From NCBI RefSeq assembly GCF_016097555.1, contig NC_054708.1, forward strand, positions 18,510,596-18,574,595: 64,000 nt of DNA, written 5' to 3'. Made by a program: the position numbers and the translations under genes. The stretch is from Gigantopelta aegis (lineage: Eukaryota; Mollusca; Gastropoda; Neomphalida; Peltospiridae). Shown one piece after another: positions 21,701 to 60,970 of the stretch. The notes beneath the pieces are model-generated. The model did not search any database. It saw nothing but the letters and a program-made list of their open reading frames with translations, and was not told the origin of the DNA. Numbering within the stretch: position 1 is the first letter of the stretch; every line of letters starts with the position of its first letter.

Positions 21701-21744
21701 ATAAACTTTCTAATAACTTGCTCCCCACATTCTTGACATTACAA

Positions 21745-22702: not shown

Positions 22703-23012
22703 GACGTTTGTTTTGTTTAACGACACCACTAGAGCACATTGATTTATTAATCATCAGCTATTGGATGTCAAACATTTGGTAATTTTGACATAGTCTTAGA
22801 GTGGAAATCCGCTACATTTTCCCATTAGTAGCAAGGGGTCTTTTATATGCACCATCCCACAGATATGATAGCACATACCATGGCCTTTCATATACCAGTC
22901 GTGGTGCACTGGCTGGAACGAGAAATAGCCCAATGGGCCCACCGACAGGGTCAATCCTAAACCAACTGTGCATTAAGCGAACACTTTACCACTAGGCTGC
23001 GTCCTGCCCCAC
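22703..23012 (-). mobile_element. tRNA-derived SINE, head 1 with tail B
   Basis: A nearly full-length copy in complement, from TGTTTAACGACACCACTAGA to CTAGGCTGCGTCCTG. Confidence 0.85.
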
Positions 23013-36500: not shown

Positions 36501-39500
36501 TTTAAAAATCTTTGTTGAAAATCAAGCTCGGTGAATAAATGGTTTTGGGCGAAATTTCTTACAAAACTTTTAATCATGTCTTCAAACATTTAATATTATA
36601 GTGTGTATAGCAATAATATATTAACTACCAGTAGTGCAGTGAAACACCTCAAAACTGGACCCTCTGTAAAATGGAAATTCACCCCCTAAGATCTGTTGTT
36701 TTTCATGGTCCCTTTTTAAACATCAGTACCTCTCTGTACTGGATACCCCTTAAAACCAGAGTTCTTATTAATCCCTGTGGGTGTCTGTTTTAGAGGGGTT
36801 CCACTGTATATAGCCAAAGAACATACATTGGGTGCAATGTTCTAAATATAGTTTTTAAAAAATGGTTTCATTTGGAACTGAGGTTTTTTTTTTTAAACCT
36901 CGTTTTAGTGTTATAGGGTGTATACTACCAAATCAAATTCCACAGATGACAATAGTAACATATGTGGCTAAAACTCCTACCTGCAGCATGAATCAGAAAA
37001 AATTTGGGAGTCAAGCTGCTTATTTCTGCGATAACAGGTAGCGTCTATGACTACCCTAGTTCCGCACAAAATTTGAGTACTTTTTTTTTACAGGTACCCA
37101 GTACATGTTTCAAGCACAAGGCTACTTGACACAGTGGTACTAGATGAAATAAAATTGCATACATTTTTTGCCCAGATGAAACTATTACAACCAACACACT
37201 CACATTTATCACCAATCACAGGACTTGTGGTGTTCACTTCTCTATCAAAAGTTCGGTGTACCTCGAACTTTGACCCAGCTGGGAGTTATTTGGTTTAGTA
37301 CTATCTGAACAACTAATCCTAATAAACTGTAATTAATTGGATCTATCTACCAGTCTTAATCAATTACCATTATCTCATTATGTAAATTATTTTTAATTTT
37401 CTCACAGATTATCAGCCAGCCTTGACAGCCTGAACAACGTTCCTAACAGTTACAACACGGTAAATATACAAATATGTTTTGGCTTGGAGAATTTGTTACC
37501 AAATCATATATACATTTCAAAAATCTAATGCAAAAGCATCAATATAAATTAGCTTTTTTACCCATTAGCAAATCCCTACACAAGCACTGAATGGATGGGA
37601 CGTAGCCCAATGGTAAAGTGCTCGCCTAAGGTGCGGTCAGACTAGGATCGATTCCTGTCAGTGGGCTCATTGGGTTATTTCTTGTTCCAGCCAGTGCACC
37701 ATGTCTGGTATATCAAAGGTCGTGGTATGTGCTGTCCTGTCTGTGGGATGGTGCATATAAAAGATCTCTTGCTACTAATGGAAAAATGTAGCAGGTTTCC
37801 TCTCTAAGACTATATTATGTCAAAATTACCAAATGTTTGACATCTAATAACCGATGCTTAAGAAATCAATGCACTCTAGTGGTGTCATTAAACAAAACAA
37901 ACTTTAACTTTTCATTCCAACCTGATGTATGTTCAGAAGGGCAAGCGATCATGGTCATTCATTAGACTGGTTTTTATGCTCAGTGTTAGATGAATGTGAC
38001 ATGATACATGGTAATGGTACCAATCAAATTGTTCACACAAGTGCTCAGGCTCCAGAACACAACACAGACCTTCTTGACTGATATTTTAAATGATGTGGTA
38101 TGTGCTGTCCTGTCTAAGAATGTAAAAGATCCCTTGCTTTAATTGGTAAGAATAGACTTTGTGGTGCTGGCTGAGTCTTTTCTTGTTCTATGTTGCAAGA
38201 CTGCAAGTACATTATGTTAGACAGCTAATAGCTTTTTGACTGGTATGCATATTCAGCTTTATATAATGCACATTATTGCTTAATATCAACAAGTGTATTG
38301 GTATATTTAATAAATAAAATGGTACAAATGTGATGGCTATTATGCCAATCATGTTTTTTTTAAATTAATTCTACCAATACTAATTTTTCATTTGTTAAAC
38401 TGTCTCTATGTGTATGTGGTCCGAGTATGCATCTTTCTAACATTCCAGCCAATGCACCACGACTGGTATATCAAAGGCCATGATATGTGCTATCCTGTCT
38501 GTGGGATGGTGTATATAAAAGATTCCTTGCTGCTAATCGAAAAGAGTAGCCCATGAAGTGGTGACAGCAGGTTTTCTATCTCAATATCTGTGTGGTTCAT
38601 AACCATATGTCCGATACGATATAACCTTAAATAAAATATGTTGAGTGTATCGTTAAATAAAACATTTCCTTGCTTCTTTTCCAACATAAGTCTCATATTT
38701 GACTTGATTGTCGCTTTAAAATATGTTACAAAATGTCTTCCTTTCCTTCTGTAGATTGGCTTCATGAAGGGAGCTGGATCTCAGCTGATGAGAACGGGGT
38801 TGTCATGGCAGTCACATGACGTCATCGACCAGCAGGCTCGCATCTTGCTCAATGATTCAGAGCAGGCCACTCTGCGTTACTACCTCCGCGAATACCAGAA
38901 AGGAGCAGTCGGAGTTGATGGTCTGGTGTCTGCCCTGTTTGAGCTACTCAACACTCAGGCAAAGGTCAGGGTTCAAATACAACTTGTTTAACTTTAGTAG
39001 ACGATTTCCAGCTTTTTAAATTTTAAAGGTTAACTTTGTAATAAAATTATGAACTATGAGCATATGTATTTTCTTGTATACTTTTTATTCCCAATAACGA
39101 GTAAAACATGTTATTCCTACTTCAAATGCCTAAATTACCTAGGTCAAACAGTGGCGTAGGAAAGTGCCAAAAAGTGGGGGGGGGGGGGGGCACACTTTTA
39201 TATTTACACATGTTTACACTATTATAAAACAAATATAAAGCACAATATCTGAAAAGTGGGGGGCACATGCCCCCTTGCCCCACTTCCTATGCCAGTGTTA
39301 TTCCAGACTTTATCTGTTTTTAGTATATACATCGTATATTATACACAAATAAAACAAATGATGTCACTATTTAAGAGAAAATCGTACAAACTGTTCAAGA
39401 AAGTTAACTCTTGGTCCTTTGTTGAAATTTGTTGTTATAAATTTGAAATAGCCTTTACTGGAAATGAAAACAAACGTAATGTCATCTCCTAATATTTGAC

Positions 39501-42500
39501 TACAACTGCAAATTAACCTTTAAAAAAGGTAATTCTTAAAAGGAATTTTATACATTTTTACAAACATATTTTCTTCACACCTCAATCTAAAATAAACTTA
39601 ATGTAAAAACGATTTTCAAAAATCTATTCAGAATGACTTCAACAAATATTTATAATCTCTCCTCGGTGCAAATTAACTATTCAGACTGAATCTGAATTAA
39701 AGGATTTTGTGTTTTGGGGAGTGAAGGTCATTGGAAAATTTAAATGTAAAATTAAGAATTAAATTTCGATACTTTCCTTACAGCAGTGATATAGTGTGAT
39801 AAAAATATAATTATGGTAAGTGAAAATGTTTTAAGTGTTGAATATAAAATTATAAATATGATTTTTTGTTAGACCAAGTTACTATAGAATCATTGTATAT
39901 GTATTGAGCTGGGGGTTTTGAAGAAAAAAAGTAAAATTATTATGGAAAATGAATGTACTGATATGCACTTCAAAAAATAAAATATAATGATAAATATTTG
40001 TATATCTGCAAGAATCAAATTGTTTTTCAAAATGTTATTTGATGCAAATGTACAAGTCAGACTGAGTCCATGTAAATTCTGTTCAGGATATAAATTTAAC
40101 TACTGATATATCTTTTTTTCTTTCTTTTTCTTTTTTAAATTTCCATAGCAGTTATTTCAAACACATGGTATCAGTTTACTTACAATTTAAAGCCTGTCCA
40201 TCTTGCTCTCATGAATGTGGGTTTCTTTCTTTTCTGTTTTTGTTTTGTCTGCTTGGTGTTGTTTTTTGTTAGTTTTTTTTAACATTTTGGGTGGGTTTTT
40301 AAAAGTTTTATTGGTGTTGTTGTATATCAAATTTATTGGTATTGTAGTTTAATTTATATCTGCTTTTCTTCCCCAGTTCACTCTGTTGTCCGATATCCGA
40401 ACTCTGATCACCCCACGAGAGCTTGATAGATTTGACACTCTTGTTCTCCGCAAGGAAGCTGACTTGACAAGGGTAGGTATTGATGTCAATGACAGATCAT
40501 AATTAGCAGACCTCACTGTGAATATAACTGAGGGGAGTTATTGATTGCTCCCCTAACTTAGGTTTTTGGGAGCCATTTAACTTAGGTTTTGGGGAGCCAT
40601 TTAACTTAGATTTTGAGAAGCCTTAGGTTTTGGGAAATTATTTTAAAATGTCCATATTGAACACTGAAATTAAAACCTTTTCTAATATACTATTTCTTTA
40701 CAGTTCACCCACTAAGGGGAGCTAAAATAACTCTCCTTAAATTGGTCTCGGAGTGATATTCCCCTTAAATGATGAGGTCTGAATCATCTGGTCATTAATA
40801 GGACATCAAACGAAATGACTTGAATTTAGTGGCCAGATAAAACAACACGTTATGACATCATATCCTGCCAAATATCTCATCAATGGCAAGCATGGCAGTA
40901 TTCAGTGTTCTATTTATAGTTTGGGGTACTTTGAACTGGGGGCAAGACATAGCCCAATGGTAAACCTTGATGTATGGTCGGTTTGAGATCGATTCCCGTC
41001 GGTGGGCCCATTGGGCTATTTCTCGTTCCAGCTAGTGCACCATGACTGGTATATCAAAGGCTGTGGCATGTATTATCCTGTCTGTGGGATGGTGCATATA
41101 AAAGATCCCTTGCTACTAATGGAAAAATGTAGCGGGTTTCCTCTCTAAGACTATATGTCAAAATTACCAAATGTTTGACTTCCAATAGCTAATGATTTAT
41201 AAATCAGTGTTCTCTAGTGGTGTCATTAAACAAAACAAACTTTGAACTGTGGTATATTACATGTATTTTTTACAGTACACCTAAATCAGATTTACTTTTG
41301 TTTTCATCTTGTTTAATGAACAAACTTAATTTTAACTCTAAGACCTACAATGATTATTAATACTAACAGAGTTCATATTTTAATAGTTATTAGAATTTGT
41401 GAAGTCCATTTTAAAACATTTAAAAATATATATATATTTTATATAAATATTACTGAACATTTTTCTTTCTCAGATTGGACAAAGACATTCAGTGATTCCA
41501 GACAATTTATCAGTTATCTCTCATGATAGTGGACAGCCATTTATTGAGGACAAAAACAGGAGAACTCTCTTTTCAGCAGAGGTAATATATTTTTCAGGGC
41601 TAGCTCTGGGTGAGCAAAACATTTGGCCAAATTATCTATAAAAGAAGACCCAAAACCCAGAGTTATTTTCCTACAAAACACCAATTATTACTTGAACTTT
41701 TTTCGCCAAATTAAAATAAAATTCGCCAGTTGTTACTAAAATTCGAAATTGGCGAATTTGGTGAGTGGCAGAGCTAGCCCTGTTTTTACCTAAAACCACA
41801 AAACACATTTTAGTTTATATTTAAAATTTAACTAGTTACCATCAATGATGAACTATTTATTTCTGCACAGTATGATCATTTTATATGATGTACTGTAATT
41901 CTTGAGGTTACTGATCTCAATGGGCATTACAAAGGTGTAGCGCCCATTACGCACAGTACGTACGTGCGTAATGCAAAACAAATCCGGGAATAGGTCGAGG
42001 CTGTCTGTAATTGTTCTATAAAATATCCTTTTCCTTTTTTCAGTAATTAAGTTTTCCCAATGAAGCAGCATGCATAATGCTAAATGTTTTCTGGCTATGC
42101 CCCTGCATTATAATGTTAGACTGGACATAGGCATATGATACAAATGTTCAACACAACTATTTCATTTCAACTTATTTTTGTGTTTATATCCCATTAAGGT
42201 TCAAGCACGCTGTCCTGGGCAAACACCTCAGCTATCTGGGCTGTCTGTTCAGTACAGTGAGTTAGTGGTTAGTGAGAGAGAAGAGGATTTAGTAGTCTTA
42301 CACCTACCCATTGGATCATTAAGACTCACTCTGGGTGGGAGCCATTACTAGGCTGTGAACTCAGTACCTACCAGCCTTATGTCTGATGACTTAACCACAA
42401 CACCACCAAGGCAAGATTCAGATTCAGGTGGCCCATCTGGCCCTATTTATTCCTTTTTGTTCTCCAAACATCAGTCCTGGCTTTTGTTAGTTCGAATATT

Positions 42501-45500
42501 CAGTCAACACATGGCCTACCCATTAACTAATGCCTGCATTTACTTCTGTTCAAGACAGGGTATCACTAAATCAAGTTCAGTTATGATGTGTAATGTCATC
42601 AAAATAAAATTAAATATGGTGGTTGTCATTAAAATAAATTAAAATATTTTAGTTATCATTATGATTCAATTATATTGAAGTTATCACTTTTAAACTTCAG
42701 AGAAGTTTGAACAACAAGAAGACCATTATGATGGAACCAGTGGTGTTCAACTCAATTCCCACAAGAAAGACTTTGGTAAGTTTTATCAGCGCTTCTAGAA
42801 TTTTTATCAAAATCACTAGCCATGGGATCAGTGATTTAAAAAATTTACTAGCATTGATTAAAAATTCACTAGCCGTACGTTTAAGTAAATACAATTTTAC
42901 TCATAGTAATAATCAAATATGTCACATAAAGTGGAAGATAGAGCTTATAAACCCTTAGATTTGGGGAGAGGATATTCATGTTTAATAAATAAACTTAAAT
43001 ACAGCATTTGACAACTTCTTTTTTTCACTAGCCATTGGGCATGGCGATAGTAGTTATTTACTAGTCCAACATTGAATATCATTAGCCATGGGAGTGGGGC
43101 TACCATAATCTAGCAACCGTGAAGTTCTATCTTATTCTTTATATCAGTTGTGATGTAATTGCATATTGGAAATTTATGCCATAAAGCAGTACTACAAAAG
43201 TTGTCATTTACAGGTAGTGTGATTCATGTTTATTAACTACAATTAGTATTAAAAGAATGAATGAACGTTTAACGACTCTTCAGCACGAAAAACACATTGG
43301 CTACTGGGTGTCAAATGTATAGTACTGAAAGATGCATACTTTATATACTGGTATATCAAAGGCCGTGGTATGTGCTGTCCTGTCTGTAGGATGGTGCATA
43401 TAGAAGATCCCTTGCTACTAATGGAAAAATGTAGCGGTTTTCCATTCTAAGACTATGTAAAAATTACCAAATGTCTGACATCCAATAGCCCATGAATAAG
43501 AAATAAATGTGCTCTAGTGGTGTCGTTAAACAAAACAAACTTTAACTTTAGCTAAATTGTTTTAAGTCTTGTCATGAATTTTTCTTGTTTTTATAATTGG
43601 TTCTGACTAATCAGTAGTCAGACAAATCTCATCCTAAATGGAAAATGAAACTATTTCCAAATGTCATTGTTTGTATATAATCTATGATTGACTATTACTT
43701 TGACATCTGATGGCTAGATAGTTCAGTATGTTATTAATCACCTACTGGTCCAACAATGCCTCGAGATATTGAGCTGAAATTTTGTGTATAGCTTTACCAT
43801 GTACCGTTACAGATCAAGTTTTCATGGCCATTTACACTTATTTGATAGTTATGGCCCTTGAACTAAGGAGATATGGAAAAAAAAATTCCAGACATTTTTT
43901 TATTTTGGCAATGCCTGAAGACATTAAGATGAAACTGACCTACTGTTATAGATCAAGTTTAACTTTCATGGTGATTTATCAATTTTTTTCACAGAGTTAT
44001 GGCCCTTGAATTTAGGGATTACAAAAACTTGTTGTGCCTGGTAGGGGACATGTATTGCTTTAGCAGTACTCTCAGTATGTAATTAATTTTTGTTTTAACA
44101 GGCATTACCAGGAAATAACAAGTCGTTAAACCTGTCTCTCGGTCATCTGAACAATGAGCATGAGCAGATGTATGATGGGAATGAAATAGAGTATGATGGG
44201 AATGAAGAACTGCTTGATGGGAATGATCAGTTACCCGATCACCTTCCAGAGGTTGGTCCATTATTTATAACCTGTTATAAACCTAGTTATAGTTAGTTAA
44301 AGAAATGAAGTATATGTGCCATAAATCATTGGTAACTGGCGAACATCAGCTATAGGGAAACCTTAATTTAAAGCCCTGAAAACATACTTTTTATTTGACC
44401 TATTTCAGAGTTAACTGATGAAAAAAGATCTTGTTTAAAACTAGTTTGAAGCAATTTCCTTGTTTTCAGTGATGGAATCACTTATGGCCAACACTACAAC
44501 TGCACAGGTTTATATAATGAAACCTCTCAAAACCAGACCCTCTGTAAACCGGAATTCCCTCAAAACTTGATGTTTTTCATGGTCCCTTTTTAAATATATG
44601 TACAGAAGAGAACCTCTCTAAACTGGATACCTCTTAAAACCAGACTTTTTAGTTGGTCCCAAGGGTGTCCGGTTTAGAGGAGTTTCACTGTATAGTTATA
44701 ATTTTTAAATTAGTCTCTAACACTAACACTAGTTTTATTATAATTTATAACAAATAATTAATAATAATGGTGTTCTGAAAATATTTTTAATATCTTTTCA
44801 TTAGGAAATAGACAAAAGGATCCCAATTCTAAATATTTTTTTGTTTTACAGTATTTTTTATGCTCGCTATACTCCGGTACATTTAAATACCAGACTTGCT
44901 TTGTGGGTTTAGGTTTGTACTGAAAGTTTTAAATTTTTGTTCAGGTAGAACCTGTAAGCTCCAAGGGTCGAACGTCACCACGTCCTGAAAAAAAAATGAC
45001 TGTTAATTTGACCCAGCCCAAATATCTCCATTCAAGGGTAAGGTCAAGGTCAAAATCACCATTACCATCTCGTTCACCTATTCCATCATTTCGATTCACA
45101 CCACCGGTATCAACAGTGATGACATCATCAACTACAGCAGCAAAGAACACTACAACTGCACAGGTTCACCAGACAGGAAAGGTGGGATTTACTAACAATA
45201 TTTAAATTGTGTAAACTAATTAACTTGTAGCTTTTATGTAGACATCAGGGGCGTAGGCTGGGAGGGGGGTTGGCTAAAATAATTTTTACAGTCAATATTA
45301 GACTATTCATAGAGGTGCCCAGGGAAACTGTAGACTAAAAGAATCCTTCATATGTGTCCATGTGGGACAGGACTATTCCACCTGAGGGGAACCTGATGGT
45401 GGAATAGCCCTGTCCCTCATACGATACATAATGGAGGATTATTTTTCTCTCATCCAGTATATGAAAAACAAACATTTTGGGAAAATGTGAAAAACCGACA

Positions 45501-48500
45501 TTTTTTTTTTATCTTGAAATAAAATAATCATAATATAATCATTGAAAAGATCGTACCCAAAAATGGTTTATACTAAAAGTATAAACTGAAAATGATAGTA
45601 TAATTTCATTATGACAGCAGGTTTCCTTGTTTTTATGAAATATAAAGAGCATTTCTTGTGTTATTATGCCGTTTACATGTCGTCACCCAATGTTACTATC
45701 AGCTCAAACAACAGAAGTCACGTGGTCATGCAAGACCGATTTGTTTTGCATGGGCTGACGTCATGGAGTACGCCTGTCTTGCATGGCTAGGGATGGGAGA
45801 AAAAAGGGTCTGCTAGGTTTGAACGCCCACCAGGTCTAGACCACACTATGCCAGTGTAGACAAGTTTTTGATTGGTAAATGTTTTACTCAGTAACTTAAC
45901 TACATACAATACTGGATGATTTGCATAACATTGTATACATATGTCTTTTATTTGGGCTAAAGAAGCAAGGTTATATTTTACGAACTTATCTCCCTTGATA
46001 TGTGTTTTTTTTAAAGCTTGAAGTGCCTCTTCAACAATAGAAGTTTTAATAATAGAACTAATTAAATTAAATAAAATAAAACATGGATATACTATGATCA
46101 CTGATTGGTGCCCCTACTGAAGTCTTAATTGCCGAGCCTCAAAGTGGTGCAGGGGTGAACACCTTGGATACCAATCCAGGTATCTGAGGTGACCAATCAC
46201 AGCAATATAAATTAAGTATAACATTGGTATTGTTTAATTTCAAAACACAGTAAATGGTTTGGGATGAACTAACACTGATAATACTATGAGCACTTGATCA
46301 CTGAATGGTACTTGTTTGATTTCATGCTTTTTAATTTTATAATGTAACGTCATAGAACACCATTTTGTAAAAAATGCCTGAATCTGGATAATAGCATTTA
46401 TTCATATTAGCATTACTACCAAACAGCTATATAGGATTGCAAACGAATCACTAAGCATTTTACATGGATTACAACTAATTTTGAGGGTAGAATGATGGAA
46501 ATACATTGTAAAAAAAGTCTCAGGTTAGCTCATTTTGCCCAAATATCTGTATAATTTATTGCACAAATTTGATATTTTGATCCAGCACTAGTCTTGTACG
46601 CTAATGGTTAACAGTCACTTAATTCACATATTTGCATCTGAATATAAAGGTATAATAATTGTTGTAGTAAACTGATTATTTTAAAAACATTATATTTTTT
46701 ATTTGAACAGGGTGATGATAACCCCAGTGATGACAGTGGTGTTGAGATCTGTGCACTGCACAATGCAGACAACCTCGCTGCGCCTGCTTTACAGAGGTGA
46801 GTGTAATAGTGGTTTCAGTTCACCTGATATTGGGGGACTCAAGTGAACTATCATGGTAACTGTTAGACAGTTTGATGACCTTTAGATAATATGATGACCT
46901 TTAGATAGTTTGATGACCTTTAGATAGTTTAATGACCTTTAGATAGTTTGATGACTTTTAAATAGTATGATGACCTTTAGATAGTTTGATGACCTTTAGA
47001 CAGTATGATGACCTTTAGACAGTATGATTACTTTTAGATAGTATGATGACCTTTTAATAGTATGATGACCTTGAATGCAATATTTTGATAAGCTTGGCAT
47101 ATTTTAATAGGAATGATATCTGGAGGTGGACATGATCTTTTGTACAAGGGGCACAGTGTGTAGGGGAAGGGGTCCCAAGCCAGATTTTGATCTTTATTTA
47201 TATGGATATGGAGTAAGAAAACAAACCCCTTATATCATGGGCATAGGAAGGTGCCAAAACGTGTGGGGAGGGGGTGCACACAAATACATATATATATATG
47301 TAAATACATGTATAAATATATAAAAAAACATCGCTGCATTAGCCCCCCTTGCCCCCCCCCCCCCCCTCCCCACTCCCCACTTCCTACACCAGTGCATATT
47401 TTCGTCTTTTAAGTAGAGGCACCGGCCATCCCCCAGTTCCTACTGGCTTGTTTAACGGCCTTGAGTGAGATTATTATTTTGATGACATAGAAACATATCC
47501 AGATGATCTTCAGTAATGTATTTTCAATGCTTGAATTTAAGAACTTGTAACTTTAGAAAATTTTGAAATGCTTTTTCTGTAGGCAAACTGCTCACCTATG
47601 GCAATTGTGAGCCTGCCAAAAGCAATTTTTAACCAGTAACCAGTAAATGGCAATAAATTTTATCCAGCAGCAAAAAGTGTGCCATTGCTAAAATCCATGA
47701 CTTACATCCATTTATTTAGCTGCACTGTATTTTTAACAATTAAGTGCAATATTTACATTCTAGAAAGCATGAAATCAAACGAGTACCATTCAGTGATCAA
47801 GTGCTCATAGTATTATCAGTGTTAGTTCATCCCAAACCATTTACTGTGTTTTGAAATTAAACAATACCAATGTTATACTTAATTTAATTAGTTCATCAAT
47901 ATATACATGTTTTTAATATATATCTGAGTTTTGAAATTAAACAATACCAATGTTATACTTAATTTAATTAGTTCATCAATATTATAATCGTGTGAATAGT
48001 ATGATCGTAAATGATATATTTTGTAAGATATTTTGATTTTTAAAAGCAATAAATTGAATTAGGTATTAGCTTATCAATTCAGACAATTATCTTGATCAGT
48101 TATTATTCTATTTGTTGCTACAGAGAGGGGTCTGACAGAAAAAAGAGGTTTGTAAAAATAATCACATTGTCAGCATGTAGTTTTGGTTTTTATTGCACGA
48201 TGTCACTGCGTGTTACAAACAGGACTGTTTGTTGTTACATTAATACATCAGCATGGGCAGAATTCCAGTGTAACTCACAGTACATTAAAACAGTGGAATG
48301 TACTGTCCTGTCTGTGATATGGGTCATATAAAATATCCTGTGAATAGCCCATAGAGTGGCAAAAACAGGTTTCTTCTCTGTGTGGTTCTAAACCATATGT
48401 TTGATACTATATAACTGTTCATAAAAGCATGCTAAGTGCTTCATTAAATAGGGTGACATCTCAACACCAACTAGGTCCCGGTAACAAGCTACCCTTGGTA

Positions 48501-51500
48501 AACTAAGTTCCAAAACATATATAGCCCCCCCTTTCCAATTTGGTGGACCAGTAAAAAATGTGCCAAATTTCCTTCATTGAAATTGTGCATCTTTTTCCCT
48601 TTGGCATTAATCCTACCAAAACTAACCCCCAGCCTGTTACCAACTCTCGTCGGGCTGCTGGTGCTCTCTTTCACCTGCCAATGCAGGTGGTCCCTTCTCC
48701 CACCCACCCCAACCTTTCCTGTCCTGAACAGAGGAGCTGGCCTAGGCTGGCACCTGTGCCCATGACAGGTGTGCGCTAAAACAGCTTGCTCTGAATGTGC
48801 ATGTTAATCCCTATCGCCTAACCTGACCTCATTAAATAAAACATTTCTTTTTTCGTCATAGAATCAGTTGTGTAGAGAATCAACAGTGATTTGCATACTA
48901 ATTCATTCATTAATTTCTTAGTGTTACTTCATCACGTCATCACCTGCCAGTCAGTATAGGAATATGGGAGAGCACTCTATTGAACTGTCTCAATGAATCT
49001 GCCCTGAATTTGTTTTTAAAAACATGATAAAGTTTGTTTTGTTTAACGACACCACTAGAACACATTGATTTATTAATCATTGGCTATTGGATTTCAAACA
49101 TTTGGTAATTTTGACATATAGTCTTAGAGAGGAAACCCGCTACATTTGTCCAATAGTAGCAAGGGATTTTTTATATGTGTCATCCCACAGAGTGGATAGT
49201 ACATACCACGGCCTTTGATATACCAGTCGTGAAATGAGAATGAGAAATAGCTCAGTGGGCCCACCAACGGTGATCAGTCCCAAACCGACTGCGCATGAAG
49301 CGATCCCTTTACCACTGGGCTACATACCACCCATTTAAAAACATGATTTCTGCATATATACTGAGGGTGTTCATTAAACTTTGAAAACAGGAGGCTGTTT
49401 GAGAAAAGCAGATGGCTATATTTATTGAATGTAGAGAGGTTTATAACTGTAAGCATGAACAATATGTGACAATAGTTGGCAAAAATCACTGCCTGCCTCC
49501 TACTAATGGTAACACTGCACATTATATTTAACATAAAGTAATGCAAAAGTAGAGAAATCAATTTACTACATAGTAGCAAACAGATTTGAATCTCTAGAGA
49601 GTCTAAAGTTTTTTAAGTCTAGGCCCAGTCCCAATATAGTTTCATTGTTAACAGAAAGAGCATAATTGGGTACCTTTTCCCCAATCTCATTCTATCTACA
49701 TGTTGCACCTAATTACAACTTTATATATATTTGAATAGTCTTTAAAACTCATATTTATTATTCATATGGTTCAACGTAACCAAGTTAATATAATCATATG
49801 AAGCACACGTGTAATAACAAGTGTAATGACGTAATTTTGGGAAGCGACGTCAGTACAACACACAAGCTCGTATAATAATCTCTATTTATTACTTGGGAAT
49901 TGTGATCTGTGAAGATACACAAGACAAATCTAGACTAATTACAATCTTTAAATTGTCTTTATGTATATTATGGTTAAACAGTTTGTTTTGTTTAACGACA
50001 CCACTAGAGCATATTGATGTATTAATCATCGGCTATTGGATGTCAAACATATGGTCATTTTGACACAGTCATATAGAGGAAATCCGCTACATTTTTCCAT
50101 TATTAGCAAGGGATCTTTTATATGCACCATCCCACAGACAGGATAGCACATACCATGGCCTTTGATATACCAGTCGTGGTGCACTGACTGAAACGAGAAA
50201 TAGCCCAATGGTCCCACCGACGGGGATCAATCCTAGACCGATTGTGCATCAGGCGTGTGCTTTACCACTGGGCTACGTGCCACCCACTTGGTTAAACACA
50301 TGTGCCTTGAGTAGTGACCTAACCTAAAGTGATACATTTTACACTGGTTTCTAAATCTGGTGGTTTTTGAAAACTACCATAGCTGTAAAACTGAATGATC
50401 ACAATGATCATATACCAAACACCAAATGACAGTTAAGTAATGGGGCATTAGTAGGATTTAAAAAGTTTTGGCCATTTTTCCAGATTACTATTTATCCTTA
50501 TTTTTATTATATGACACACATATACTTTGCTGCCTGTTCAAAATGCTCAAATCAACTTCAACATTTTGACTGAGCAATTGATCTATTTTTAGATTTGGCT
50601 TTAAATTTAGTCCGGACATGTTTAATTTTTAATTTACTACATTTGTATTGCAAATTTCACCCATCTCAAATGGACTTGGCCACTGGCACTGTCAAAGATT
50701 GGACCCAGAAGTATGTGCCTGAACCTTTTCATAGGATAGGGACATGTTAATAGGTTGTCCATGTCCGCATACGTTAATTAAAAATGTCCTGCAATGTTGT
50801 TAAACATTCCGTTTTCCCTTCCAGGGTAACTAGGGGCGAGACGTAGCCCAATGGTACAGCGCTCACTCAATGCATGGTCAGTGTGGGATCGATCCCAGTC
50901 GGTTTGCCCATTGGGCTATTTCTCGTTTCAGCCAAATGCACCACGACTGGTATATCAAAGGCCGTGGCATGTACTATCCTGTCTGTGGGATGGTGCATAT
51001 AAAAGATCCCTTGCTACTAATCGAAAAGAGTAGCCCATGAAGTGGCAACAGCGGATTTCCTTCTCAATATCTGTGTGGTCTTATCCAAATGTGTGACACC
51101 ATATAACTATAAATACAATGTGTCGAGTGCGTCGTTAAATAAAACATTTCTTTTTTCTTTTTTTTCCAGGGTAACTATCTCGACTGAAGAAGACACTACA
51201 GAGCCTGTGCCCGATTATGAACCACCTCCAGTCCCCCGTGATGACCCTGAACCCCTCCCGGATTACGAGGCGGATCCACAGACATCCACTTCCCAGGATT
51301 CTCTGTACGCAGTCATCAAGAAGAGGCCTCGGAAACCACCACGCAAGGTTTGCCGTTTTTCTTCAGTTTGATAAGAGTTTGACCCATGTTCAGTGTATCC
51401 GACTTCCTAGATGCTATCGGTTGCTGGATCAAACATATGAACAGACCACTTTAGATTTTTTTCATTCTAACCAGTGCTCCACAATTAGCATATGAAAAGC

Positions 51501-57500: not shown

Positions 57501-60500
57501 TGTTTAAAATATGGATGGATGTTTGACGGTGAAACCACTGCATCTGCCCCGACCATCTGTATACACCGAAGTAGAGATGATCATTTTCCACCAAAATGAA
57601 AAGGTCTTCACCATTTTGTCATTTTCTTTCTAGTACTTTTTTAGATGAAAATTGATATTTTAGTTTTTACTTAATGATAATCTGCTATTTTAATTTATGT
57701 TTTCCAATTTTTATAGCAGGTTTTGTTGTTTACAGTTACTTAATGATAATCTGATATTTTATATCTTTAATTTATGTTTTTCAATTTTTGGGGGCAGGTT
57801 TTGTTGTTTACAGTTATGGAGTAAATTTGCTGAGGCTTTAGTCAATTAATTTCTTACATATTTTCTCATTTGTATTTATCAGAAGATATATAAATAAACA
57901 ACCATCTTAGTTCCGTGTTTGAAATCCTTCTATAGACTTGGTGCTTTCATTTAGTTCCTTTGAGTTTAATTAGACTGGCCTCGGTGGTGTCGTGGTTAGG
58001 CCATCGGACTACAGGCTGGTAGGTACTGGGTTCGGATCCCAGTTGAGGCATGGGATTTTTAATCCAGATACCGACTCCAAACCCTGAGTGAGTGCTCCAC
58101 AAGGCTCAATGGGTAGGTGTAAACCACTTCACCGACCAGTGATCCATAACTGGTTCAACGAAGGACATGGTTTGTGCTATCCTGCCTGTGGGAAGCACAA
58201 ATAAAAGATCCCTTGCTGCTAATCGGAAAGAGTAGCCCATGTAATGGTGACAGCGGGTTTTCTCTCTCTATATCTGTGTGGTCCTTAACCATATGTCTGA
58301 CACCATATAACCGTAAATAAAATGTGTCGAGTGCATCGTTAAATAAAACATTTCTTTCTTTCTTGAGTTTAATTTCTGTAGTTATTGTTATTATTATTAT
58401 TCAGTTTATATTTGCTGGCATGTTAAGTTTAGGTCTGTAATCTTGTTACCTTTCTGAGGTTTTCTTTCCAACATTAAAGTTTTCAATTATGTCTCTAATA
58501 ACCTTCCGATGCTGCACCAGTTTGCTCAGTGAATTGGATAGTGTGTCAGGACTTCTAGATTATGGTAGCCCCACTCCCATGGCTAGTGATATTCAGTGTT
58601 GGGCTAGTAAATAACTACTATAACTAGCCCGACGGCTAGTGGGGGGAAAAAACCCTTGTCAAATGCTGCATTTAAGTCTTATTTTATAAATATGAATATC
58701 CTGCCATCTATGGGGTTTTAAGCTCTATCTCTCTCTTTAGGTGACATATCTGATTATTACTATTAGTAAAATTGTATTTATTTGAAGTAGGGCTTGTGAA
58801 ATTTTAATCATGGCCAGTAAATTTTTTAAATCACTGATCCCATGGCTAGTGGATTTTTATAAAATTCTAGAAGCCCTATTTATTTTCAGTCATGAATAAT
58901 CAACAGCAATCCCAAGGATAAATAATTATAATAAATATTAGGTTCTGTAAAGGAAAGGAATAATGGATGACATTTCAGCAGAGTTTTAAACTATGGCCAT
59001 TTAGCATCCATCAGGAGAAGGATAGAGGGGAAACCTGCTGCCACTACATAGGCTACCCTTAATGAAAGAGAAGCAAGAGATCTTTTATATGCAGTTTCCC
59101 ATAGACAGGATAATGCATTTAAAACAAAATTAAAAAGGAAAGAAAAAACCCCCAAAAGAGTCCACCAAAGGCAAATGATCCTGCAACCTACTGCACCTCG
59201 GACACATGGTCTACCACTGATCTACATCTTGCCTCCAGCAGATTCTTATGTTTGATTTATTTATTTGCACTAGGAATGCTCAATCAGTGTGAATAACAGA
59301 GATGAGACCTGGTTACGATTATTTTCATCTTTTTGTGTGTTTGTTTTTTAGGAAGGAAACAAAAAAAGCATTGCTAAAGAAAAATATGGTGACATTCCAC
59401 TGGAGTATGTCAACGTATATCGCACCAAGCCGACTCTGGGCCTGGCCATTGAAGGTGGAGCCAATACTCGACAGCCTCTCCCACGAGTTATCAATGTTCA
59501 GGTACCGGTTTATCTTCGATTCATCATTTTATATCGATGGAAAGAAATAAAGGATCACACAGACAGCAGCAAGAAATAATGACTACATCAAAAATCAATT
59601 CATATTGTTAGAAATTGACTGGGAACATATTGGCAGCACATTCAACACTACAGACATTCAATCCCACATTACAACTTGGTATGAAATACAGCCATTAATA
59701 CACTAGTTGTGAATTAAATTTGGTCTACAATTTGATGTGTTCCCTTATTTCTTCTCATCAGTATATTATAGCAATATTGTAAAACAATTTCTGGTTTCTA
59801 ATGAATAATGGTAACAAATGTCAATGATAGTTAAGGGAAACATATATTCTGACTTTGAAGGTAATGAAATAAAATTTGGAATTTTTACTTGCTTACTGTA
59901 GTAACATCTTGAAGGAAGAAGTTTGTTTTGTTTAATTAATGACACCACTAGAGCACATTGATTTAATAATCATTGGCTATTGGTAATTTTGACATATAGT
60001 CTTAGAGAGAAAACCCGCTACATTTTTCCATTAGTAGCGAGGGATCTTTTATATGCACCATCCCACAGACAGGACAGCACATACCACGGCCTTTGATATA
60101 CCAATTGTTGTGCACTGGCTGGAATGAGATGTGGGAGTTGGAATGAATGCTAATATTAGTTAATAGTTATTGCAATCAATTATAGGCTTAGTCATCTTAC
60201 AGGATATTTCTTCTCTTATTCTCTAGACCAAAGAAAAGTTTGTTTTATTTAACGATGCCTCTAGAGCACATTGATTTTTATCTTATCATCGGCTACTAGA
60301 CATCAAACATATGGTCATTCTGACATATTTCTTTAGAGGAATCTGCTGCCGCCACATAGGCTACTCTTTCCGATAAGCAGCAAGGGGTCTTTTATATGCA
60401 TTTTTCCAGACAGGACAGCACATACCATGACCTTTGATGAACCAGTTGTGGACCACTGGATGGAATGGAAAATAGCCCAAACTGCAAATGGGTCTACTAA

Positions 60501-60970
60501 GAAGGATCGATCCGATGACCGACCGCTTCACAGGCAGACATGCTACCGCTTGAGCTACATCCCGCTCCCTCTAGACCAAAGAGTCACTAGTACCAAGATG
60601 CACAAGATAGCTGATGATTAAACAAAAGCATCTGAATCCATTTTATATTCATTGATACAGTTTAAATAATTTTCACATAATTAACACTATGTTAACATTC
60701 ATTTTTTTTTTTTTTTTTTTTTTTCTCCAGCCAGGTGGTTCAGCATTTGAATCTGGTGGACTGAAAGTGGGTCATATAATTCTGGAGGTGAATGGACAGA
60801 CGGTGGTGGGTCTGGAACACACAGAGGTTGCCAAGGTGATTGCCGAGTCATTTAAAAACAAACAGCTGCCCAAGATGGAACTGTTAGTGACAGAGACCGG
60901 GGTGGAGCTCACGGGAACTATGAAAGACCTTGTCACGGCAGCAGATGATCAAGAGCCATCCACTACGTAG
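23760..60970 (+). CDS. WHRN: Whirlin, PDZ scaffold protein (15 coding exons)
   Basis: Joining 15 exons gives 982 residues, close to human whirlin (about 900). Order: harmonin-homology domain 1 (about 7-90), a basic low-complexity linker, PDZ1 (about 205-290, loop GFGFTIRGG), PDZ2 (about 346-428, loop LGLMVRGG), harmonin-homology domain 2 (about 485-570), a long disordered region with Ser/Arg and Pro-rich stretches (576-853), and PDZ3 (about 872-958, loop LGLAIEGG), ending EPSTT. This order is diagnostic of whirlin. Harmonin has only one harmonin-homology domain, and PDZD7 differs in layout. In vertebrates whirlin is a cytoplasmic scaffold at stereocilia tips and the photoreceptor periciliary membrane, binding usherin, ADGRV1 and myosin XVa; a role in mollusc sensory or ciliated cells is inference. 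All junctions are GT-AG with matching phase and there are no internal stops. Confidence 0.95.
24587..24899 (+). mobile_element. hAT-like MITE at the exon 1 donor, copy 1
   Basis: Begins CAGGGCTTCTAGAA and ends AGCCCT. The exact 8-bp flanks GTAAAAGT (24579-24586 and 24900-24907) are the exon 1 splice donor. The interior repeats CTAGCCATGGGA. Relatives lie at 42787 and 58547. Confidence 0.88.
25325..25560 (+). mobile_element. Diverged SINE of the GGATATAAGC-tail family
   Basis: AGCCTAATGGTTAAGCCATC and TAACCACTGACACCTGTC correspond to the head and body of this family; many substitutions. Confidence 0.55.
25611..25915 (+). mobile_element. SINE, head 2 with tail B, diverged
   Basis: Head GTTGGTAGAGCATTCGC, core and TGTGCTCAAGTGGTGTCATT tail in order, in whirlin intron 1. 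Fragments of tail A (26038-26098) and core (26165-26245) follow. Confidence 0.75.
26506..26721 (+). CDS. WHRN: WHRN exon 2: end of PDZ1 and linker
   Basis: Seventy-two codons between TTCCATTCAG and GAAAG|GTGATT. It begins IVKAAKRLELCVSRVGRIPG, the last PDZ1 helix and strand, then an HQAYRWVDPKGRP segment typical of whirlin and a Glu/Ser-rich linker. Both ends are phase 0. Confidence 0.93.
26817..27265. mobile_element. TIR-like element rich in GAGTACTC/ACTCGAGT words
   Basis: GTAGGACTCCCACGAGTACT and the complement-like AAGTACTCGAGT...GGAGGCCCTAC ends; flanks TATCAGTA and TGTCAGTA. Confidence 0.5.
27374..27543. mobile_element. Mini-transposon with CAGTGAAACCTGTC ends
   Basis: CAGTGAAACCTGTCTAA and TTAGACAGGTTTCACT are inverted ends. 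Relatives at 36634-36811 and 44520-44692 have CAGTGAAACACCTC/AATGAAACCTCTC ends. Confidence 0.7.
27845..27905 (+). mobile_element. LINE 3' tail fragment
   Basis: GGCCAATCCCAAA and ATATTGTTTAAAC match the 3' end of the LINE at 22490-22540. Only the tail is present, a typical short truncated insertion. Confidence 0.6.
28461..28718. mobile_element. MITE with GGGCCCAATTTCAC ends
   Basis: GGGCCCAATTTCACAAAACA and CGATGTTTTGTGAAATGGCC are inverted; the interior is AT-rich. Confidence 0.75.
28745..29335. repeat. Dispersed repeat, second copy, split by a SINE
   Basis: It matches 13335-13690 on either side of the SINE at 28860-29123, so the SINE is younger. Confidence 0.65.
28860..29123 (+). mobile_element. 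SINE of the GGATATAAGC-tail family, intact TSD
   Basis: Flanked by TATTAGAGGTCACC at 28846-28859 and 29124-29137. It starts TGACTTGGTGGTCTCATGG and ends GGATATAAGCATGAAAATAA. It splits an older repeat shared with 13335-13690. Confidence 0.9.
29757..30150 (+). mobile_element. SINE, head 3 with tail A, intact TSD
   Basis: Flanked by TCTGTTAGTATTAGA at 29742-29756 and 30151-30165. Full length with a CTTT-rich tail. Confidence 0.92.
30460..31446. repeat. 24-bp tandem array
   Basis: Unit ATGTATGACTAATCCTGTAA plus AGGG, about 35-40 copies with variants (CATG, GAGATG, ACTACTCC), fading leftwards to about 30300. Because 24 is a multiple of 3, long frames of eight-residue repeats stay open on both strands; these are not genes. 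In whirlin intron 2. Confidence 0.92.
31835..32058 (+). mobile_element. SINE, head missing, tail A
   Basis: Core and tail A are well preserved with a CCTT tail; the tRNA-like part is absent. Confidence 0.8.
32529..32907 (+). mobile_element. TTAA-flanked MITE, copy 2
   Basis: 379 bp with ends TTAAAGGGACATACCCTAG and CTAGGGTATGTCCTTTTAA, in whirlin intron 2. Confidence 0.85.
33069..33194 (+). CDS. WHRN: WHRN exon 3: first half of PDZ2
   Basis: Forty-two codons between TTTCCCAG and CTTAAG|GTAAGT. It encodes the carboxylate-binding loop CLGLMVRGGREFGLGIYI and SVAENAGLK. Both ends are phase 0. Confidence 0.95.
34093..34634 (+). mobile_element. MITE derived from the 11.6-12.5 kb Tc1-like element
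   Basis: About 320 bp of the left part and 230 bp of the right part match the 11623-12540 element closely. The transposase part is deleted between GAATTTGC and ACTGATAAAA. Ends are flanked by TATA. It lies in the whirlin intron between exons 3 and 4. Confidence 0.85.
34720..34848. mobile_element. MITE with GGGGCCTAATTCAC ends
   Basis: GGGGCCTAATTCACTAAA and TTTGTGAATTAGGCCCC are inverted; 129 bp. Confidence 0.75.
35148..35396 (+). mobile_element. SINE, head 2 with tail B
   Basis: GATCTAGCTCAGTTAATACA head, core, and a tail cut at CATTAGCTGATG, where a second copy in the opposite direction begins. Confidence 0.8.
35397..35612 (-). mobile_element. SINE, head 1, tail truncated, head-on with the previous copy
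   Basis: Complement copy from TCTTAGAGAGAAAAC to CACTGGGCTACGTCC, directly abutting the plus-strand SINE and followed by the 33-bp array. Confidence 0.8.
35621..36151. repeat. 33-bp tandem array before exon 4
   Basis: About 16 copies of a 33-bp unit containing GTTAATGGTTGCTCATGATA and AAATCTTTCTATT. A single related unit at 34870-34925 marks the probable source. Confidence 0.92.
36212..36417 (+). CDS. WHRN: WHRN exon 4: second half of PDZ2
   Basis: The exon begins VGDQILHVNKHSFLDITH, continues through AVRILKVTKHMVITVKDVG, and then has a linker rich in Lys/Ser. It ends with two bases of a split Arg codon (GGAAG|GTAAAT). The acceptor lies about 60 bases after a 33-bp tandem array. Confidence 0.95.
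36634..36811. mobile_element. Mini-transposon, second copy of the CAGTGAAAC family
   Basis: Shares TTTTTCATGGTCCCTTTTTA and the terminal words with 44520-44692; TA follows the right end (CACTGTATA). Confidence 0.7.
37408..37459 (+). CDS. WHRN: WHRN exon 5: short linker exon
   Basis: A 52-nt exon between TTCTCACAG and AACACG|GTAAAT. It completes the split Arg and encodes LSASLDSLNNVPNSYNT. It is too short for simple ORF scans but its phases (in 2, out 0) link exons 4 and 6 exactly. Confidence 0.9.
37592..37912 (+). mobile_element. SINE, head 1 with tail B
   Basis: Full length: TGGGACGTAGCCCAATGGT head, core, and CAAAACAAACTTTAAC end. A decayed core fragment lies at 38060-38165. Confidence 0.85.
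38443..38675 (+). mobile_element. SINE, head missing, tail A
   Basis: Core and tail A end about 80 bases before the exon 6 acceptor. Confidence 0.8.
38755..38964 (+). CDS. WHRN: WHRN exon 6: harmonin-homology domain 2
   Basis: Seventy codons between CCTTCTGTAG and GCAAAG|GTCAGG. The helical sequence includes QQARILLNDSEQATLRYYL and GAVGVDGLVSALFELLN, the second harmonin-homology domain that marks whirlin. Both ends are phase 0. Confidence 0.94.
39148..39297. mobile_element. TIR element with subterminal poly-G (CAGTGGCGTAGGAA)
   Basis: CAGTGGCGTAGGAA and TTCCTATGCCAGTG are inverted. AAAAGTGGGGGG runs lie inside both ends. A relative is at 47234-47395. Confidence 0.7.
39300..40370. other. Whirlin intron 6, no feature seen
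   Basis: AT-rich unique intron sequence ending in a T-rich tract before exon 7. Confidence 0.5.
40377..40472 (+). CDS. WHRN: WHRN exon 7: end of HHD2
   Basis: Thirty-two codons between CTTCCCCAG and ACAAGG|GTAGGT. FTLLSDIRTLITPRELDRFD is the last helix region of the domain. Both ends are phase 0. Confidence 0.93.
40939..41238 (+). mobile_element. SINE, head 1 with tail B, TSD present
   Basis: Flanked by ACTTTGAACTG at 40928-40938 and 41239-41249. In whirlin intron 7. Confidence 0.88.
41474..41581 (+). CDS. WHRN: WHRN exon 8: linker
   Basis: Thirty-six codons between TTTCTCAG and GCAGAG|GTAATA, encoding a polar linker with HSVIPDNLSVISHDSG. Both ends are phase 0. A small TIR element begins 14 bases after the exon. 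Confidence 0.85.
41595..41784. mobile_element. Small TIR element after exon 8
   Basis: CAGGGCTAGCTCTG and CAGAGCTAGCCCTG are exact inverted ends. It begins 14 bases after the exon 8 end. Confidence 0.75.
42170..42412 (-). mobile_element. SINE of the GGATATAAGC-tail family
   Basis: Complement copy with CTCACTCTGGGTGGGAGCC and the head at its right end. Confidence 0.75.
42701..42775 (+). CDS. WHRN: WHRN exon 9: short linker exon
   Basis: Twenty-five codons between TTAAACTTCAG and ACTTTG|GTAAGT, beginning RSLNNKKTIMMEPVVFNSIP. Both ends are phase 0, so it could be skipped without changing frame. A MITE starts 12 bases after the exon end. Confidence 0.82.
42787..43121 (+). mobile_element. hAT-like MITE after exon 9, copy 2
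   Basis: The same family as 24587; begins CAGCGCTTCTAGAA 12 bases after exon 9. The flanks AAGTTTTAT and AAGTTCTAT differ at one base. Confidence 0.82.
43342..43552 (+). mobile_element. SINE, head missing, tail B
   Basis: Core from CTGGTATATCAAAGG to CAAACTTTAACTTT. Confidence 0.8.
44102..44251 (+). CDS. WHRN: WHRN exon 10: acidic linker with repeated DGNE
   Basis: Fifty codons between GTTTTAACAG and CCAGAG|GTTGGT. The second half is an imperfect internal repeat of YDGNE/LDGND units, an acidic expansion not typical of vertebrate whirlin as far as I know. Both ends are phase 0. The donor is weak (GTTGGT). Confidence 0.82.
44520..44692. mobile_element. Mini-transposon, third copy of the CAGTGAAAC family
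   Basis: Matches the 36634 copy through most of its length and ends GGAGTTTCACTGTA. Confidence 0.7.
44945..45181 (+). CDS. WHRN: WHRN exon 11: Ser/Arg/Pro-rich linker
   Basis: Seventy-nine codons between TTTGTTCAG and GGAAAG|GTGGGA. It includes SRVRSRSKSPLPSRSPIPS and a Thr/Ser-rich end. Both ends are phase 0. It matches the disordered region before PDZ3 in whirlins. Confidence 0.85.
45363..45418. repeat. Strong hairpin
   Basis: GGGACAGGACTATTCCACC pairs with GGTGGAATAGCCCTGTCCC across a short loop, with one mismatch. In intron 11. Confidence 0.75.
46208..46333 (+). repeat. Left arm of an inverted repeat around exon 12
   Basis: 126 bases nearly identical (about two differences) to the complement of 47761-47886. 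Key words: AACATTGGTATTG, GGTTTGGGATGAAC, GAGCACTTGATCACTG. Confidence 0.92.
46372..46605. mobile_element. Copy of the 17.1 kb TIR element, ends lost
   Basis: GAATCTGGATAA, CCAAACAGCTATATAGG and CATTTTGCCC occur in the same order as at 17150-17320. It lies in intron 11 before exon 12. Confidence 0.65.
46711..46796 (+). CDS. WHRN: WHRN exon 12: acidic linker
   Basis: An 86-nt exon between ATTTGAACAG and ACAGAG|GTGAGT. It encodes GDDNPSDDSGVEICALHNAD and ends in a split Arg codon. It lies between two nearly identical inverted arms at 46208-46333 and 47761-47886. Confidence 0.85.
46866..47070. repeat. 19-bp tandem array
   Basis: About ten copies of GATGACCTTTAGATAGTTT and variants, right after exon 12. 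Confidence 0.88.
47234..47395. mobile_element. TIR element with subterminal poly-G, second copy
   Basis: GGGCATAGGAAGGTGCCAAA and CCCCACTTCCTACACCAGTG match the 39148 element; in intron 12. Confidence 0.65.
47761..47886 (-). repeat. Right arm of an inverted repeat around exon 12
   Basis: The complement of 46208-46333. A direct duplicate of its last part (about 53 bases from TTTTGAAATTAAACAATACC) follows at 47930-47984. Confidence 0.92.
48292..48450 (+). mobile_element. Decayed SINE, core and tail A
   Basis: TACTGTCCTGTCTGTGATAT and CTAAGTGCTTCATTAAATA are recognisable. A separate AAATAAAACATTTC end at 48833-48848 may belong to another retroelement spanning 48451-48848. Confidence 0.5.
49029..49333 (-). 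mobile_element. SINE, head 1 with tail B, intact TSD
   Basis: Flanked by TTTAAAAACATGAT at 49015-49028 and 49334-49347. Confidence 0.9.
49981..50288 (-). mobile_element. SINE, head 1 with tail B, intact TSD
   Basis: Flanked by TGGTTAAACA at 49971-49980 and 50289-50298. Confidence 0.9.
50833..51163 (+). mobile_element. SINE inserted at the exon 13 splice acceptor
   Basis: Head 1 (GGGGCGAGACGTAGCCC), core and tail A, ending in AAACATTTC and a T-rich run. The 14-bp target duplication TTCCAGGGTAACTA at 50819-50832 and 51164-51177 contains the last bases of the intron and the first of the exon. The SINE's T-rich tail now forms the polypyrimidine tract of the downstream acceptor. Confidence 0.95.
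51170..51347 (+). CDS. WHRN: WHRN exon 13: proline-rich region
   Basis: The exon starts at TTTTTTCCAG|GGTAAC and ends at CGCAAG|GTTTGC. It completes Arg and encodes 59 codons with PDYEPPPVPRDD and LPDYE motifs and a basic end (KKRPRKPPRK). A SINE directly upstream has duplicated the acceptor; the other copy is at 50819-50832. Using the upstream copy would add SINE sequence and a TAG within eight codons. Confidence 0.9.
51954..52769 (+). mobile_element. TTAA-flanked MITE, longer copy 3
   Basis: The same ends (TTAAAGCCGCACACCCTAG; CTAGGGTGTGTCCCTTTAA) and flanking interior, but with about 430 extra bases at 52050-52490. Either an insertion or a longer ancestral form; no coding signal seen in it. 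Confidence 0.75.
52820..53928. mobile_element. hAT-like nonautonomous element, 1.1 kb, perfect TSD
   Basis: Begins CAGAGGTGGGGAAAA and ends TTTTTCCCCACCCCTG. The exact 8-bp duplication GTAGACTC lies at 52812-52819 and 53929-53936. No transposase frame is seen inside. In whirlin intron 13. Confidence 0.88.
54121..54215 (-). mobile_element. SINE fragment, tail B
   Basis: TCAATGGCTACTGGATGTCA and AAAGGGTCTTTAATACGCAC match the tail and core. Confidence 0.6.
54449..54792 (-). mobile_element. SINE, head 2 with tail A
   Basis: The tail A and core are in complement, then a head 2-type tRNA-like end (GACTCAGTCTGTAGAGCAC on the minus strand). Confidence 0.82.
55262..55768. mobile_element. TIR element (CAGGGCTCAC ends) with nested SINE
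   Basis: Left end CAGGGCTCACCCTGTGTG and right end CCAGTGTGAGCCCTG are inverted. A SINE at 55353-55675 with duplication TTCTTTAAATTAA (55340-55352 and 55676-55688) is nested in it. Without the SINE the element is about 170 bp. Confidence 0.75.
55353..55675 (-). mobile_element. SINE, head 1 with tail A, nested
   Basis: A full-length complement copy with an exact 13-bp target duplication, inserted in a small TIR element. Confidence 0.9.
55915..56105 (-). mobile_element. SINE, tail B and core, head missing
   Basis: TTTAATGACACCACTAGAGC to CACGGTCTTTGATATAC. Confidence 0.75.
56106..57959. other. Whirlin intron 13, no gene seen
   Basis: Unique AT-rich intron. An imperfect direct repeat of CTTAATGATAATCTGATATTT and TTTATGTTTT words lies at 57660-57810. 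Confidence 0.5.
57972..58362 (+). mobile_element. SINE, head 3 with tail A, intact TSD
   Basis: Flanked by TTGAGTTTAATT at 57960-57971 and 58363-58374. Full length with a TTTC tail, in whirlin intron 13. Confidence 0.92.
58547..58877 (-). mobile_element. hAT-like MITE, copy 3
   Basis: The same family in the opposite direction, from CAGGACTTCTAGAT to TTCTAGAAGCCCT, in intron 13. No clear duplication. A lone end of the family is at 54217-54232. Confidence 0.82.
59025..59236 (-). mobile_element. Decayed SINE
   Basis: Core words such as GATCTTTTATATGCAG and AGACAGGATAATGCA remain, about 120 bases before exon 14. Confidence 0.55.
59352..59501 (+). CDS. WHRN: WHRN exon 14: first half of PDZ3
   Basis: Fifty codons between GTTTTTTAG and GTTCAG|GTACCG. 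It encodes the carboxylate-binding loop TLGLAIEGGANTRQPLPRV preceded by a Lys-rich segment. Both ends are phase 0. Confidence 0.94.
59914..60130 (-). mobile_element. SINE, tail B and core, head missing
   Basis: From GTTTGTTTTGTTTAATTAAT to GTGCACTGGCTGGAATG, in intron 14. Confidence 0.8.
60233..60572 (-). mobile_element. SINE with hybrid middle and tail B
   Basis: The tail is of type B, but the part next to the core (GCCGCCACATAGGCTACTC) is of the type seen with tail A. The head has a tRNA-like end at 60530-60572. Confidence 0.8.
60731..60970 (+). CDS. WHRN: WHRN exon 15: second half of PDZ3 and stop
   Basis: After a long T tract and TTTTCTCCAG the exon encodes PGGSAFESGGLKVGHIILEV, VGLEHTEVAKVIAESFK and MELLVTETG, then a short acidic tail ending EPSTT and TAG at 60968-60970. 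Confidence 0.95.
   Translation, partial: PGGSAFESGGLKVGHIILEVNGQTVVGLEHTEVAKVIAESFKNKQLPKMELLVTETGVELTGTMKDLVTAADDQEPSTT

Follow-up and report, generated by a model that had tools for sequence, protein, structure and literature searches.

A SINE insertion duplicated the 3' splice site of whirlin exon 13 in Gigantopelta aegis and may have supplied its new polypyrimidine tract

In the whirlin gene of the deep-sea vent gastropod Gigantopelta aegis, a SINE with pol III boxes and a pyrimidine tail has inserted in sense orientation across the boundary of intron 12 and exon 13, with a target duplication that copies the acceptor AG together with the first eight bases of the exon and leaves the CT-rich tail of the element in front of the downstream copy. 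We consider it probable, at roughly 80%, that this tail now serves the copied AG as polypyrimidine tract and that the downstream acceptor is the one in main use, with a GTTAAA located 32 to 33 nt before the exon as a possible branch site. If the tail works in this way, the SINE and one copy of the repeat would now belong to intron 12, with no change to the coding sequence, while the old acceptor would now be a decoy whose use brings a stop 19 nt further on and probably leads to degradation of the transcript. An insertion that hits a splice acceptor is usually regarded as a knock-out; in this one, the target duplication copies the AG, the tail of the element would supply the pyrimidine tract, and the gene appears to survive. 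With ca. 30 copies per 64 kb, 14 acceptors and targets of ca. 14 bp, rough arithmetic predicts, before selection, ca. 0.1 acceptor hits in a gene as large as whirlin, and the genome must therefore contain some insertions of this kind that survived. The whirlin insertion stands out by its apparent self-repair and not by the occurrence of an acceptor hit itself.

The whirlin gene and its insertion site

The host gene was identified by its joined exons, for which the best protein match among the best 120 of 591 is the whirlin-like isoform X2 of Gigantopelta aegis (P0001); the best of these 120 matches are whirlins. All 982 residues of P0001, a prediction that depends on the assembly and was very probably made from this very genome, are reproduced residue for residue from 15 coding exons at 23760-60970, with two equivalent exon chains that differ solely in the boundary of exons 10 and 11. 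The window therefore belongs to this species or, in this gene, cannot be told apart from it. This reconstruction agrees with the exon number of 13 and the frame given in the preliminary description. Pfam recognises PDZ in three stretches of the protein as well as the harmonin N-terminal domain USH1C_N, which exceeds the whole-protein cut-off (34.4 vs 27) with no single stretch passing alone, and the protein thus combines the three PDZ domains and the harmonin-type helical domain of a whirlin. On the plus strand, exon 12 (46711-46796) ends in phase 2 at the donor GAG/gtgagt and is followed in the public gene model by an intron 12 of 4373 nt that includes the SINE (46797-51169), though its ancestral end was presumably at the old AG. 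Exon 13 (51170-51347; 178 nt) encodes VTISTEED and a proline-rich part and ends at the low-scoring donor AAG/gtttgc, while exon 14 (59352-59501) holds the start of the PDZ3 region and exon 15 (60731-60970) the rest of it with the stop codon; exons 14 and 15 would both be lost from the protein via the upstream AG. Exons 13 to 15 are open in the downstream frame, and the part encoded by exons 14 and 15 is 75-81% identical to whirlin of Haliotis and Patella. We note that the acceptor of exon 15 (60690-60730) follows a long T run with at least 27 consecutive pyrimidines, the length of which may vary between individuals.

The sequence TTCCAGGGTAACTA is found identically at 50819-50832 and at 51164-51177 as a perfect 14-bp repeat that comprises the acceptor AG and the first eight bases of coding exon 13. 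Between the two copies lies the 331-bp SINE (50833-51163, plus strand), recognised by BLAST, copy alignment and box matches and inserted in sense orientation. Chance does not account for a 14-base match that sits precisely at the two ends of the element, and the preliminary description's view of a 14-bp target duplication carrying the AG and eight exon bases, by which a SINE doubled the 3' splice site, is confirmed by this perfect repeat around a dispersed element. Sequence and exon reconstruction place the ancestral acceptor, with the old polypyrimidine tract and the old AG (50823-50824), at 50809-50824, partly inside the upstream copy, and the public gene model takes the AG at 51168-51169, inside the downstream copy, as its acceptor. 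It had also been proposed that the upstream copy keeps the old tract and that a T-rich SINE tail precedes the downstream one, and both hold: the tail and the TTCC of the duplication form what would be the new polypyrimidine tract (51147-51167), in which all 21 nt before the downstream AG are pyrimidines and 17 of them T. On the best reading, the insertion lengthened intron 12 by 345 bp.

Where the exon began before the insertion can be judged from other whirlins. P0001 joins the end of exon 12 at 46796 to 51170 and reads ...LQ-R-VTISTEED at the junction, and the preceding motif P-[ST]-DDSG-[VIL] is present in 13 of 156 fetched proteins. In eight of these 13 (P0001, P0002, P0003, P0004, P0012, P0013, P0014 and P0017, from gastropods and bivalves) the motif is followed by R-VTIS, i.e., in seven of the 12 other than P0001 itself, while R-VTIS is absent from the stretch printed for the remaining five (P0005, P0021, P0022, P0065 and P0107), among which P0021 has GVTIS and P0065, a partial protein, stops short of the junction. 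Since R-VTIS recurs in seven of 12 other proteins, exon 13 would originally have begun as it does at 51170. Prior to the insertion, the exon thus most likely started with GGTAACTATCTC, and what stands upstream would be a fragment severed after GGTAACTA by the SINE.

The pyrimidine-tailed SINE family

The element in whirlin is dispersed across the window, by which we mean the whole 64-kb stretch of DNA analysed, with 34 BLAST rows at E<=1e-3 including the match to itself; these are not a copy number, as one copy may account for several rows. From an alignment of 12 copies we derived a consensus; of 330 positions aligned to it, the whirlin copy departs from it at 22. Its 5' part contains a pol III A box, TAGCCCAATGG (50844-50854, plus strand), and a B box, GGATCGATCCC (50886-50896, plus strand), which match the box consensuses at 11/11 and 9/11 positions, respectively, and the first three bases of the A box are the stop codon TAG (50844) that is read after splicing to the upstream AG. 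ARAGORN detected no tRNA in the SINE copy or the head of the consensus, and Rfam gave no tRNA match of the head at E<=10, so a tRNA or Rfam identity of the head was rejected. We regard the element as a SINE with pol III boxes and a putative derivation from a tRNA.

At its 3' end, the SINE reads GTCGTTAAATAAAACATTTC and continues into a tail rich in C and T. Twelve copies, the whirlin one included, match beyond position 300, and ten of them have such a tail; the two exceptions are a copy near 23332 that ends like another family and a tailless one near 48293. Clear flanking repeats accompany four of 11 copies examined (one further copy is doubtful and six are without), namely the whirlin insertion (14 bp) and three of the ten others, near 55352 (13 bp), near 1464 (12 bp, where a G run separates the repeat from the element) and near 26037 (14 bp); these lengths were read from the printed flanks, and the 5' limits of the six copies without repeats are unrefined. 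The window thus holds dispersed copies with target-site duplications, as is characteristic of a SINE. Scored as an acceptor, the AG that comes first behind the tail exceeds 6 in three of 11 copies, that of whirlin among them, and stays below 2.2 in the other eight. The tail alone is therefore insufficient and the target must bring the AG, and we rejected the idea that tails of this family generally make acceptors.

A short 3' piece of the same SINE at 26037-26096 in whirlin intron 1, flanked by the repeat TCCAGTGCAGTGCT, again has CCAG after its pyrimidine tail, though with a poor acceptor score of -1.35. Another sense copy of this SINE (38443-38680) ends 75 bp before whirlin exon 6 (38755), close enough that it could affect the branch region of that exon. 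A second SINE family shares approximately the first 200 bp with this one and has a different 3' third that ends in GTTAAACAAAACAAAC in six of seven copies inspected; parts of it are located at 40939-41133, 50086-50278, 22811-23010, 37599-37792, 49139-49323 and 43347-43435.

The two acceptors and their products

We scored both acceptors with a weight matrix built from the 13 other acceptors of whirlin, themselves taken from the P0001 model. Over 20 nt and with a pseudocount of 1, the downstream site reaches 11.95 compared to 4.69 for the upstream site, while the leave-one-out scores of the real acceptors range from -3.8 to 15.4, with eight of 13 below the downstream and five of 13 below the upstream site. 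The downstream AG outscores the upstream one in all 32 settings, which varied the length scored, the pseudocount and the training set, even though the upstream AG on its part exceeds 10 of 13, or nine of 12, real acceptors when only 12 nt are scored. Of the 21 nt before the upstream AG, 16 are pyrimidines and eight are T, the fewest T among the 15 acceptors compared. With respect to branch sites, the upstream acceptor has a YTNAY motif at -48, while no strict YTNAY lies within 60 nt of the downstream one and only GTTAAA is found there, at -33/-32. Exon definition favours the downstream site, since exon 13 then measures 178 nt instead of 523 nt and the exon's own donor is weak (0.5, leave-one-out). 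The best AG within the SINE body scores only -0.93, and a cryptic acceptor in the body was rejected on this ground. Against our main reading, the upstream acceptor is intact and transcribed first, and we infer the relative use of the two sites from their scores and the predicted model. The preliminary description's claim that the SINE tail has been taken over as a functional polypyrimidine tract is thus favoured by the public model, the R-VTIS junction and the 32 concordant score comparisons, although the public model is a prediction and not RNA.

The consequences for the protein are as had been anticipated for both sites. Splicing to the downstream AG restores the full whirlin of 982 residues, while splicing to the upstream AG gives 800 residues ending in ...LQRVTRGET before the TAG at 50844 and removes the proline-rich part and PDZ3. 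This stop leaves 501 nt of its exon, and nonsense-mediated decay is expected for a transcript with a stop that far before the exon end. A truncated whirlin or a decay switch is no more than a possibility. Skipping of exon 13 was rejected as an outcome because it would yield 854 residues whose end is shifted.

A fair donor within the SINE, passed over in the preliminary description, adds a further product to these predictions. If the GT in the repeat is left aside, the strongest GT from the old acceptor to the new one is ATG/GTCAGT after 50876, which scores 7.55 with a matrix resting on 14 whirlin donors, ranks 53 of 3920 GTs and exceeds eight of the 14 whirlin donors including that of exon 13 (leave-one-out); the corresponding site of the SINE consensus, GCG/GTCAGT, scores 7.37. 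The old AG and this donor could define a 52-nt exon (50825-50876, plus strand) in place of the 523-nt one that uses the donor of exon 13, and this candidate poison exon, at present a prediction only, would consist of the eight exon bases and 44 nt of SINE with the TAG at 50844. It is a speculative and rather doubtful extension of our main reading that a single retroposition built both a poison-exon switch, from the old AG and the SINE donor, and its cure, with tail and copied AG as the main acceptor. On this view, because donor-like site and pyrimidine tail are traits of the family, sense insertions at a YAG would be partly spliceable and the family would be tolerated at splice acceptors in general.

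Alternative readings, age and precedents

That both acceptors are used appreciably, with the old AG spliced on to either the SINE donor (52 nt) or the donor of exon 13 (523 nt) to give a decay-prone or PDZ3-less whirlin, perhaps under regulation, strikes us as unlikely, though some points favour it: the upstream acceptor is intact and above five of 13 real ones under the 20-nt setting, the SINE donor has the score and rank given above, and mouse whirlin is described as having N-terminal transcripts without PDZ3 (PMC4859837, PMC2873905). The donor scores come from a small matrix of 14 donors. A query with exons 12 to 15 returned 36 protein sequences, all of at most 75% identity and none a Gigantopelta aegis fragment at the junction, a result that is silent on upstream use. 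We consider it very improbable that the GT of the upstream repeat (AGG/GTAACT) serves as a donor from which the SINE would be spliced out as an intron of its own, in the manner of recursive splicing or introner-like gain; the site scores 7.47 and ranks 58 of 3919, yet its use adds one base, shifts the frame and runs into a stop at 799 residues, on which grounds this candidate was rejected. An assembly error seems least probable of all: the source is a single assembly, but the family-typical ends of the element, the exact target repeat and the open frames on either side all speak against it, and the chromosome-level assembly of the species, from which the window presumably comes, is described as built from PacBio reads with Illumina polishing (PMC7895826).

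Likelier than these last two, though still clearly on the unlikely side, is that the insertion is a deleterious loss-of-function allele carried by the haplotype that was sequenced and that upstream splicing dominates. The intact upstream acceptor fits it, as does the identity of the duplicated bases expected for a recent insertion, and the four clear target repeats (53 bp including the whirlin insertion) have 0 mismatches, which fits a younger age, though repeats found by a similarity-based search favour such a result. On the other hand, the whirlin copy has 16 private differences (three of CpG type) among the 327 positions tested, against a nucleotide diversity of 0.0025 reported for Gigantopelta aegis (PMC7736800), so that at face value the insertion would be older than standing variation, unless the differences derive from the source copy, as part of them may; seven of the 16 rest on just two to four other copies. 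Given the conflict between 16/327 private differences and 0 mismatches in 53 bp, we rejected dating by private substitutions. The open exons 13 to 15, with the 75-81% identity of exons 14 and 15 noted above, likewise argue against loss of function, and the open frames also for our preferred reading of a downstream acceptor in main use.

Similar insertions are known, above all from merle dogs, though the one in whirlin appears to have repaired its own damage. The canine merle SINE (SINE-Cf) is described at the boundary of PMEL17 intron 10 and exon 11, in antisense and with a 15-bp duplication that includes the acceptor, and its poly(T) acts as the tract for a cryptic acceptor in the SINE body, with the choice of acceptor setting the protein made (PMC7349775). 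Both cases thus share a SINE that sits where an intron meets an exon, a target duplication that includes the acceptor, a T stretch of the SINE tail as pyrimidine tract and an acceptor choice that decides the protein, the latter two by inferred function in whirlin. They differ in that merle is antisense with its poly(T) at the upstream end and uses an acceptor in the body, whereas the whirlin SINE is in sense with its tail adjoining the copied AG and offers only a poor AG in its body. Among the open-licence papers listed and screened by title and start of abstract, merle was the only close case of a further acceptor duplication by a SINE that we recognised, and we make no claim of absence from print. 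Alu exonization similarly reads a SINE tail as the pyrimidine tract of a 3' splice site (PMC7349775) but mostly involves antisense copies that create new exons, whereas whirlin would keep its old exon and need no SINE base in the mRNA. Introners, which are described as taking splice sites from target repeats in many ways, are comparable in that element and target repeat jointly supply splice signals and the insertion is spliced out (PMC9860276). Unlike most introners, which are thought to be DNA-based and create a new intron inside an exon, the SINE here would lengthen an existing intron, given that the R-VTIS junction is kept and the repeat-GT donor breaks the frame. In length and internal boxes, the element also resembles a candidate relative from another gastropod, the Nin-domain SINE of Lottia gigantea, which is described as 369 bp long and likewise contains an A box and a B box (PMC11121367). 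The tail is CT-rich and in sense here as opposed to poly(A) and antisense in mammals, and if such insertions were found at other acceptors, the chemistry of a SINE family's tail would help decide where insertions persist, and introns would have a direct route by which to grow at the 3' end and to gain poison exons.

Beyond these SINEs, the window contains the remains of a Tc1/mariner-type transposase on the minus strand (10277-11348) in two overlapping frames (DDE_3 and HTH_Tnp_Tc3_2). A 180-codon open stretch at 21737-22276 looks by eye like the C-terminus of a reverse transcriptase of LINE type, with no Pfam match at E<=0.001. Intron 2 of whirlin carries a 24-bp tandem repeat of 38.6 copies (30505-31440).
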